Assembly (NCBI RefSeq): GCF_025151045.1
Contig: NZ_CP102285.1
Coordinates: 2,046,001-2,110,000, forward strand
Direction: 5' to 3'
DNA length: 64,000 nucleotides
Origin: Parabacteroides johnsonii DSM 18315
GTDB lineage: Bacteria > Bacteroidota > Bacteroidia > Bacteroidales > Tannerellaceae
Part shown: one piece after another, positions 4,692 through 52,738 of the stretch
How positions within the stretch are numbered: the first letter of the stretch is position 1
Layout: every line of letters begins with the position of its first letter
The notes under the pieces: generated by a model
Seen by the model: only the letters and a program-made list of their open reading frames with translations
Told to the model about the DNA's origin: nothing
Databases searched by the model: none
Made by a program: the position numbers and the translations under genes

Positions 4692-4738
4692 CTGAATTTA
4701 GTCATGTTCTAATCCTGCAGCAGGCAGTTTTTAATCTT

Positions 4739-4804
4739 TCCACAAGCGTGAAACGTACTTTCCACACCTGTGGGCCATATTTTCCACATTTGTGGAACGA
4801 GGGG
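4739..4804. repeat. 22-bp hairpin array A (three units) upstream of the HU-like gene
   Basis: TTCCACA begins at 4739, 4761 and 4783, exactly 22 bp apart. The second and third units close as CCACA-N2-TGTGG and TTCCACA-N2-TGTGGAA; the first closes only weakly. Hairpin centres fall at 4746.5, 4768.5 and 4790.5. The remainder of the 4692-4966 gap shows nothing else clear. Confidence 0.7.
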
Positions 4805-25046: not shown

Positions 25047-25075
25047 CAAATGTAAAAAAAATTGTCAATTGTCAA
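25047..25075 (-). promoter_or_regulatory. Promoter of the ECF sigma gene, with -33 inside an AATTGTC repeat
   Basis: On the minus strand TTG (25073-25075), 18 nt, TACATTTG (25047-25054), 20 nt before the start codon. The TTG is part of an AATTGTC repeat tract (25061-25090). Confidence 0.65.
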
Positions 25076-25090
25076 TTATCAATTGTCAAT
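25061..25090. repeat. AATTGTC tandem repeat
   Basis: Four near copies of AATTGTC or AATTATC, like the larger tract at 1211-1340. The sequence is largely self-complementary. Confidence 0.6.
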
Positions 25091-25093
25091 TAC

Positions 25094-51113: not shown

Positions 51114-51578
51114 TTATAACAACTGCTGCAGCATCCTCAACGCCCTTCTCGCCGCCAACCAGATATTCTCTTCACGCTCCGTCCCGAAATGATAACATTC
51201 GGATACAACTTTGTCTTTCAAGGCGGCAGCAATCCAGACGGTTCCGACAGGTTTTTCGGGTGAACCTCCACTGGGGCCAGCAATGCCGGAAGTGGCAACG
51301 GCACAGTCGCAACCTAACACGCGGATCGCTCCCAACGCCATCTGCTCGACAACCGGACGGCTGACTGCTCCGTATTGTGCCAAGCTCTCTTCCGAAACGC
51401 CTAAAACATGATGCTTCACTTCATTGCTGTAGGAAACGACTCCCCCGCAAAAGTAATCGGAACTGCCGGCCACACGTGTTATCAGATGTGCGATATATCC
51501 GCCGGTACAACTTTCAGCCGTCCCCATCGTCAGGTGACGGGCACGGAGACACTCGCCTATTTCTTTTTCTATAGCCAT
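51114..51578 (-). CDS. pncC: Nicotinamide-nucleotide amidase, CinA C-terminal type
   Basis: 154 residues, only the amidase domain without the CinA N-terminal domain. MGTAESCTGGYIAHLITRVAGSSDYFCGGVVSYSNEVKHHVLGV and the GIAGPSGGSPEKPVGTVWIA block are the family marks; the Ser in AESCTGG is the likely nucleophile. It deamidates NMN to NaMN in NAD recycling. The start at 51578 puts a 22-bp hairpin array (51617-51704) in its 5' leader if it is transcribed with tsaD. Confidence 0.9.
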   Translation of the reverse strand: MAIEKEIGECLRARHLTMGTAESCTGGYIAHLITRVAGSSDYFCGGVVSYSNEVKHHVLGVSEESLAQYGAVSRPVVEQMALGAIRVLGCDCAVATSGIAGPSGGSPEKPVGTVWIAAALKDKVVSECYHFGTEREENIWLAARRALRMLQQLL

Positions 51579-51616
51579 TCTTACCTTCTCTATTTTTCCT
51601 CACGTCATACAAACAG

Positions 51617-51704
51617 TTTCCTCGGCAGGAAACCTTTGTTCCATGCGCATGAAAATTTAGTTTCATAGGCATGAAACTTTTGCTCCATAGGCATGGAATA
51701 AAAT
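51617..51704. repeat. 22-bp hairpin array E (four units) between tsaD and pncC
   Basis: Units begin at 51617, 51639, 51661 and 51683. Each has its own small hairpin: GTTTCC/GGAAAC, ATGC/GCAT, TTTCAT/ATGAAA and TCCAT/ATGGA, with centres at 51624.5, 51646.5, 51668.5 and 51690.5. Loop AGGC is shared by the last two units. The arms differ between units while pairing is kept. Confidence 0.8.
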
Positions 51705-51709
51705 TTACA

Positions 51710-52738
51710 TTACTTCAACTTCGCCTCTACCCTTGCAAAGGGAGCGGCATCCATCGGACAGAACTCCTTGTCGAGATATTTATAATACCCCGTTATGGCA
51801 ACCATCGCTGCATTGTCCGTCGTAAAAGAGAACTTCGGGATATGCACCTTCCAACCAAAACGTTTCGCATGGTCGAGGAAAGCATCCCGAAGGCCGGAAT
51901 TGGCCGATACGCCACCGGCAACAGCCACCTCCTTAATGTTCAGATCTTTCGCTGCCCGACGCAATTTGTTCATCAGGATATCGATCACCGTCGCTTGCAA
52001 AGAGGCACAAAGGTCCTGCTTGTTTTTTTCGATAAAATCGGGATCTTCCTGTAGTTTGTCACGCAAGGTATAAAGGAAAGAGGTTTTCAATCCGCTGAAA
52101 CTATAGTCATAACCGGGGATATGCGGCTTACTGAATGTAAAAGCCTTCGGATTTCCTTCGTTAGCAAGGCGGTTCACGACGGGACCACCGGGGTAACCTA
52201 ACCCCATCACCTTTGCACATTTGTCAAACGCTTCACCGGCAGCATCGTCGATCGTCTGCCCGATCACTTCCATATCGTTGTAAGCATTCACCTTGATAAT
52301 CTGCGAATTTCCACCCGAAACCAACAGGCAAAGGAACGGGAACGAAGGAGCATGATCATCTTCCGGCGTCTCCTTGATAAAATGAGCCAGCACGTGTGCC
52401 TGCAAGTGGTTGATCTCGATCATCGGAATATCCAACGAGACAGCCAAGCCTTTGGCAAAGGAAGTCCCAACCAGCAATGATCCCATCAAACCCGGCCCAC
52501 GGGTGAAAGCAACGGCACTTAATTCGGATTTATCGATACCGGCACGCTTGATCGCTTCGGCAACCACTGGGATAATGTTCTGTTGATGTGCGCGGGAAGC
52601 CAGTTCGGGAACAACACCGCCATAGGCTTCGTGAACAGCCTGACTGGCAATTACATTCGACAGCATCACGCCGTCGCGTATTACAGAAGAGGAAGTATCG
52701 TCGCACGACGATTCGATTCCTAATATTGTCACACTCAT
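51710..52738 (-). CDS. tsaD: tRNA N6-adenosine threonylcarbamoyltransferase
   Basis: 342 residues. The ASKHA fold shows ILGIESSCDDTSSSVI at the start, the metal-binding INHLQAHVLAH (His pair, about 109-119), LLVSGGNSQI, and GGPVVNRLANEGNP. It transfers the threonylcarbamoyl group to A37 of ANN-decoding tRNAs. It ends 5 nt from the array that leads into pncC, and diverges from the TamB gene over a short gap. Confidence 0.95.
   Translation of the reverse strand: MSVTILGIESSCDDTSSSVIRDGVMLSNVIASQAVHEAYGGVVPELASRAHQQNIIPVVAEAIKRAGIDKSELSAVAFTRGPGLMGSLLVGTSFAKGLAVSLDIPMIEINHLQAHVLAHFIKETPEDDHAPSFPFLCLLVSGGNSQIIKVNAYNDMEVIGQTIDDAAGEAFDKCAKVMGLGYPGGPVVNRLANEGNPKAFTFSKPHIPGYDYSFSGLKTSFLYTLRDKLQEDPDFIEKNKQDLCASLQATVIDILMNKLRRAAKDLNIKEVAVAGGVSANSGLRDAFLDHAKRFGWKVHIPKFSFTTDNAAMVAITGYYKYLDKEFCPMDAAPFARVEAKLK

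Follow-up and report, generated by a model that had tools for sequence, protein, structure and literature searches.

Repetitive extragenic palindromes (REP/BIME), the systems that come with RAYT, are dispersed intergenic palindromes that occur in clusters. The sites of ParB (parS) and of Noc are palindromes with a GTTYC half-site core, and BldC is a small regulator that reportedly lies as a cooperative multimer, side by side, on direct repeats (PMC5859096). The BrickBuilt MITE of Porphyromonas gingivalis is reported to have a 23-nt tandem unit at 19 dispersed loci, leader and tail segments, and inverted-repeat ends (PMC4596501). The same paper refers to tandem repeats of 22 nt in strain W83 of this species, whose sequence it does not give (PMC4596501); these might belong to the family described below. 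Finally, TAACTGA direct repeats are described from Beggiatoaceae, Cyanobacteria and five Bacteroidetes, the heptamers lying mostly just upstream of start codons in the genome studied (PMC4679880).

The arrays described here were traced from one locus in a window (the whole stretch of DNA analysed) of 64,000 nucleotides of the Parabacteroides johnsonii DSM 18315 genome, hereafter G000. They proved, like REP/BIME, to be dispersed intergenic palindromes, but are set apart by an exact 22-bp phase, near-independent half-sites and the confinement of units to arrays; moreover, five array-rich genomes (G000, G012, G013, G015, G023) lack the Y1 transposase (RAYT, PF01797). With BrickBuilt they share a short tandem unit, dispersed loci and the order, but not its leader, tail and terminal repeats: in the 40 positions beyond 392 array ends no base exceeds 0.45. 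As with the TAACTGA repeats, the repeats are short and lie in dispersed intergenic sets; unlike those direct heptamers, the present units are inverted pairs found in all gene orientations. Whereas parS halves abut, array half-sites stand 4 bp apart and in tandem. The working may be analogous to that of BldC, a regulator placed side by side on repeats, although the array repeats are inverted and those of BldC direct. The initial annotation was right that the locus is not a CRISPR array: long unique spacers are replaced by 4-bp A/T-rich ones, and the units are diverged rather than near-identical.

The tsaD-pncC array and its family

In the window, positions 51616-51699 hold four 18-bp dyads of the form GTTYC-N8-GRAAC, with 4-bp A/T-rich spacers and a period of exactly 22 bp, the tsaD stop codon lying 10 bp from the array (Table 1). 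The four units between tsaD and pncC, and their period, are thereby confirmed, and Tandem Repeats Finder detected the array independently (period 22, score 88, 51624-51695). A repeat search at default settings missed it because the copies have diverged. The four stems named at the outset are all present but not all intact: in unit 2 the ends are unpaired and pair 4-15 is a C/A mismatch, and unit 4 is off-core at positions 2 and 18.

Table 1. Features of the tsaD-pncC junction (window coordinates)
Feature	Position	Strand	Basis and remarks
Unit 1, GTTTCCTCGGCAGGAAAC	51616..51633	.	sequence; 10/10 core positions matched
Spacer 1, CTTT, 4 bp	51634..51637	.	sequence
Unit 2, GTTCCATGCGCATGAAAA	51638..51655	.	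sequence; 9/10 core positions matched
Spacer 2, TTTA, 4 bp	51656..51659	.	sequence
Unit 3, GTTTCATAGGCATGAAAC	51660..51677	.	sequence; 10/10 core positions matched
Spacer 3, TTTT, 4 bp	51678..51681	.	sequence
Unit 4, GCTCCATAGGCATGGAAT	51682..51699	.	sequence; 8/10 core positions matched
tsaD	51710..52738	-	upstream co-directional neighbour; named from annotation of the matching P. distasonis region
pncC / CinA-family gene	51114..51578	-	downstream co-directional neighbour; the P. distasonis record has a CinA-family gene at the corresponding position

This array is one member of a large dispersed family, with about 40 arrays in this genome. Used as a query, the 96-base array matched 16 places in the 4.75-Mb genome. 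The 27-base pattern GTTYCN8GRAACN4GTTYC has 43 forward and 47 reverse exact matches, where the reversed control pattern has 0 on either strand, and 103 and 106 at one mismatch, where the control has 2 and 3; the array is therefore not a product of chance. Curation left 38 arrays with 168 units, 3 to 7 units each, in 40 stretches plus the window (864 kb), which were picked around pattern matches and so are not a random sample; 11 of 49 chains had been removed before counting, 9 as chance or off-family (three of them weak 22-bp pairs) and 2 as duplicates. The step between units was 22 bp in 126 of 130 cases and 21 bp in the other 4, the search permitting 20-24.

Comparable arrays, which the initial annotation had proposed to look for in related genomes, turned out to be abundant. 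Of 25 genomes from the genus, 18 contain one or more exact pattern matches (a single match in one of these), and copy number is very uneven between close species, from 0 to 82 forward matches; among 16 other genomes of the order one had a match, a single one. When 84,980 species genomes were searched for two exact units, at least 117 stretches matched. Among the matches listed (80 titles), 76 are Bacteroidales, including Bacteroides, Phocaeicola, Mediterranea, Porphyromonas and Parabacteroides; the remaining four are a Chryseobacterium with a longer array (L226), whose comparison with phages led nowhere, and three with two units. In an order-wide draw 12 of 392 genomes matched: 4/6, counting G000 itself, in f1 (the family of the window), 3/6 in f83, 1/6 each in f57 and f87, and single matches in f6, f22 and f41. 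The f87 match consists of near-identical copies and is perhaps another element; f57 and f83 are, judging from sequence, probably the Bacteroides and Porphyromonas families. With one mismatch allowed, another genome of the draw reaches as many as 93 two-unit matches on a strand. The same grammar recurs with other inner letters, and the GTTYC half-site core is common to three families of the order. A literature search mostly confined to journals open without subscription, preprints excluded, found no published description of these arrays, and six unit and spacer strings matched only unrelated papers. The arrays are thus abundant in major gut bacteria, and the search turned up no account of them; between families their sequences change and the grammar persists.

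Two look-alikes should be mentioned. In G381, a genome of another family, contigs C3, C5, C6, C9 and C11 carry a near-identical 40-base element of two-dyad layout, unlike the diverged arrays elsewhere and possibly a transposon end. Viral stretches matched the pattern in 14 cases, and one phage contig (L322:5557-5640) has four dyads at 22-bp steps inside a single gene. I read this gene as a phage O-like replication initiator, by analogy with the lambda iterons; the resemblance to the arrays would then be convergent.

Genomic setting

The arrays are mostly intergenic and lie in all gene orientations. By mechanical gene calls, the 38 arrays of G000 fall between co-directional (20), convergent (7) and divergent (5) genes or inside predicted frames (6, namely one frame of 377 aa and five of 71-108 aa), and 103 arrays elsewhere are distributed as 47 co-directional, 16 divergent, 11 convergent, 10 inside and 19 at a contig edge. 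With a second gene caller the G000 figures become 17, 11 and 2 for co-directional, convergent and divergent, so that classes shift while all three persist.

A linked gene was rejected, as no flanking family or cluster recurs in the sets examined. Among the best 25 of 158 Pfam families, the top one is carried by 3 neighbours out of 109, counted without duplicates among frames of 100-520 aa no more than 600 bp away; among the 20 clusters listed of 549 flanking proteins, the widest, by my reading an ABC-type ATPase, covers 5 source groups. By the GC skew of sampled stretches, the terminus is at about 1.55 Mb and the origin at about 3.8 Mb, and array positions show no trend between them (KS p 0.58, n=27), which disposes of an exclusion from the terminus in the style of nucleoid occlusion. 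Near the GC-skew origin stands a single exact parS (G000:C1:3731668-3731683), far from dnaA (379-861, at the record start). Apart from the usual ParB, six genomes of the genus encode a second protein with an HTH_ParB domain, of 572-647 aa (G000 at C1:211601-211858, G002, G004, G018, G042 and G045), and several of the six are array-rich. The PM2 promoter motif of B. thetaiotaomicron was also dismissed as the identity of the arrays, PM2 being a -10/-30 element (PMC7366714).

The junction itself was compared at 30 tsaD loci, out of 38 genomes with tsaD, using mechanically called pncC starts. An array lies in the tsaD-pncC gap at six of them (G000, G002, G013, G015, G016, G023), while 19 of the 24 array-free junctions have 53 bp or less between the two genes. 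The six arrays differ in unit sequence, and in three of them the first unit starts 13 bases on from where the stop codon of tsaD begins. P. distasonis has three units at this junction, partly degenerate. A comparison of the window array with plasmids matched one record, the tsaD of P. distasonis, and comparison with phages led nowhere.

Unit grammar, turnover and pairing

Each 22-bp unit comprises two inverted half-sites, GTTYC and GRAAC. Since a 4-bp gap separates the 7-bp arms of a dyad and another of 4 bp precedes the next dyad (7+4+7+4), arms alternate in direction every 11 bp, about one helical turn, and all of them therefore lie near one face of the DNA. Of 392 array ends, 40 have a further GRAAC half-site, pointing the same way, that starts at +6 beyond the last unit.

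The core of the unit is under purifying selection, while inner letters and spacers change fast. This was established from 15 ortholog alignments (12 with G013, 3 with G020) covering 13 G000 arrays, with 34 gapped columns set aside. Divergence was 17/336 = 5.1% at the six core positions and 90/437 = 20.6% at the inner letters, compared with 230/1790 = 12.8% in the 60-bp flanks and 3046/38520 = 7.9% in the mostly coding surroundings further out; elsewhere in the arrays the two edge positions gave 11/111, the Y/R positions 28/112 and the spacers 40/164. The core is below the inner letters (Fisher p 1e-10) and below the flanks (p 2e-5), and the inner letters are above the flanks (p 7e-5), sites not being fully independent. 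Ascertainment does not account for core conservation: in a simulation of the detection threshold, a core evolving like inner sites (true value 0.204) would measure 0.198, against the observed 0.051. Exact units outside arrays number 8 in 864 kb, equal to the level of other gap lengths (2-11), compared with 77 inside; four control patterns gave 6, 2, 38 and 2, the one with 38 also fitting array units. A conserved core together with lone exact units at chance level implies that what is kept is the whole array and not the single dyad.

Inner letters have a flavour of their own in each genome. The inner dinucleotides of G000 are AT (129), CC (52) and CT (41) of 266, and those of G012 AT (109), AC (40) and AA (17) of 194, with CC at most 2; this could reflect shared descent of units instead of a preference of the protein. 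At another locus, G000 and G020 differ by three units gained or lost as a single 66-bp block. Seven identical units (GTTTCCTGCAAGGGGAAC) stand at G000:C1:1820398-1820547 with spacers TACC plus one TGCC, in what looks like a recent whole-unit expansion.

The initial annotation had taken the differing stems for compensating changes. Among 809 units from 199 arrays, pair 6-13 is indeed in excess over a global shuffle (z 10.4). However, when right halves were shuffled within arrays, pairs 4-15, 6-13 and 7-12 showed no covariation (z -0.7, -1.2 and 1.0). The test had room to detect it, as re-pairing within arrays could add 0.13-0.16 at these three variable pairs (observed 0.60, 0.53 and 0.46; attainable 0.73, 0.67 and 0.62). 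Of the remaining pairs, the nearly invariant 3-16 gave z 2.4, 1-18 gave 1.6 and 8-11 gave -3.0. In G000 alone (146 units), observed and expected pairings are 84/76.4 for 4-15, 73/64.7 for 6-13, 88/76.2 for 7-12 and 96/85.9 for 1-18. Arrays therefore share a flavour and partner halves scarcely co-vary; the claim of compensation fails at the three variable pairs. Bases 18 and 1 also match across the spacer, in 76 of 104 cases in G000 (expected 64.3, p 0.0002) and with z 6.7 over all arrays, in both instances against the global shuffle only.

Explanations for the arrays

The best reading of these observations, to which I give a probability of about one half, is that the arrays are dispersed tandem operator arrays for a putative dimeric, cooperative, sequence-specific DNA-binding protein. 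The initial annotation had left a choice between RNA structure and dyad protein sites on one face of the DNA. The near-independent, conserved half-sites at helical spacing are as expected of a tandem operator array and favour the latter. A protein of the dimeric helix-turn-helix type would bind the 18-bp dyads, one dimer each, and adjacent dimers would bind cooperatively along one face; with such cooperation between neighbouring dimers, single sites would not be kept. Less firmly, the bound tract may be an element of DNA architecture or a transcriptional roadblock between genes, and would not serve as operator for a shared regulon. It appears that arrays gain and lose units whole, through slippage or recombination, which would keep the 22-bp phase.

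Several results count against the operator reading. Independence of the half-sites is imperfect, pairs 3-16 and 1-18 keeping positive z values in the within-array test, and the match across the spacer does not sit well with it either. The lack of a recurring flanking gene and of an ori-ter pattern weighs in the same direction. The patchy distribution over the order, with close relatives that can be array-free, is odd for a basic chromosome function and is the strongest point against an essential role.

Were the units RNA hairpins instead, acting as terminators or as 3'-end stabilisers in mRNA like REP, strong folding would be natural. Both RNA strands of the tsaD-pncC array fold better than 200 of 200 shuffles (z -4.9 and -6.2), but this is due to the dyads themselves. 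The array does lie between co-directional genes, unit 1 has two terminator-like matches, one per strand, where 0.5 are expected, and in G000 pairs 1-18 and 7-12 exceed the global shuffle (p 0.005 and 0.012). Against this stand the loss of the pairing excess in the within-array shuffle, the presence of arrays in divergent spacers too, and the lack of a preference for G.U, which on the transcribed strand of co-directional arrays numbers 127 against 157 A.C (29 against 55 in an earlier count of seven pairs in G000). Rfam has no match to the tsaD-pncC array at the gathering level, and only far sub-threshold ones at E up to 10. Selection for RNA structure, as offered by the initial annotation, is accordingly not supported: an excess of paired changes, for which it had suggested a check, is essentially absent within arrays, which removes the RNA option, and the missing within-unit covariation, G.U preference and Rfam match speak against a structured RNA family. 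Hairpins as such are thus improbable. Scarcely better or worse is the idea that the arrays are secondary sites for chromosomal ParB, prompted by the resemblance of GTTYC-A/C-C/T to the parS half-site GTTYCAC. HTH_ParB occurs in 37 of 38 genus genomes; TGTTYCACGTGRAACA with abutting halves, the parS consensus, has one exact match each in G000, G012, G013, G015, G017 and G009, five of the six combining one T-type and one C-type half as arrays often do (two-mismatch matches in the genome search were close to control level). The same consensus has no match in the 362 loci searched, and the window contains none even when 2 mismatches are allowed. Arrays lack the abutting CACGTG centre, their halves are 4 bp further apart, and T stands at position 7 in 54% of units, C in 26%. 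G017 and G009 possess ParB and parS yet no exact array match, and the second, longer HTH_ParB protein is absent from array-rich G012 and G041. ParB was hence rejected as the obvious binder, the half-site resemblance being a lead only.

The main rival, tentative though it is, concerns origin and is compatible with the operator reading: the arrays would be selfish or mobile elements of REP type, put in place and multiplied by a trans-acting machinery that recognises the core, with any host function secondary. Dispersal between genes, the contrasting copy numbers of close species, patchy presence over the order and an array at a minority of tsaD-pncC junctions, most others being short, all speak for it, as do the Y1 transposase of array-rich G018, G021 and G041 and the near-identical copies in G381. 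Yet PF01797 is found in just 8 of 38 genus genomes, and the five array-rich genomes without it exclude RAYT as a requirement. Nor do the 392 array ends have a terminal repeat or conserved flank, no transposase is among the best 25 of the 158 flanking families, G000 has no set of identical arrays, and array loci are retained between species. That the arrays are instead remnants of older elements, in decay and functionless today, agrees with the inner letters, Y/R positions and spacers outpacing the flanks (20.6-25% against 12.8%), but a core that diverges less than both flanks and surroundings, and a strictly maintained phase, make it very unlikely.

Returning to the operator reading, the arrays predict one protein that recognises GTTYC-N8-GRAAC in 22-bp phase, and they may bear on chromosome organisation or insulation in Bacteroidales. 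A more specific form, which I consider rather doubtful, is that they are nucleation tracts for a putative filament-forming DNA-architecture protein of Bacteroidales; offered beside it are the shared GTTYC core, inner letters that drift by species, and the gain and loss of arrays as cassettes and of whole units. In this connection, a Hi-C study that looked at two Bacteroidetes species reports that it found no known homologue of condensin in them (PMC10197239).

Two other repeat sets were seen in the window. Spaced in steps of 22 bp across 4737-4798, three dyads of the TTTCCACA type (TTTCCACAAGCGTGAAAC, TTTCCACACCTGTGGGCC, TTTCCACATTTGTGGAAC), left out of the array count, look like a different binding-site cluster. 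Tandem repeats of the 7-bp motifs AATTGAC / AATTGTC lie at 1208-1232, 1308-1339 and 25060-25091, two of these three sites standing soon after the small SRP RNA and tRNA-Thr genes.
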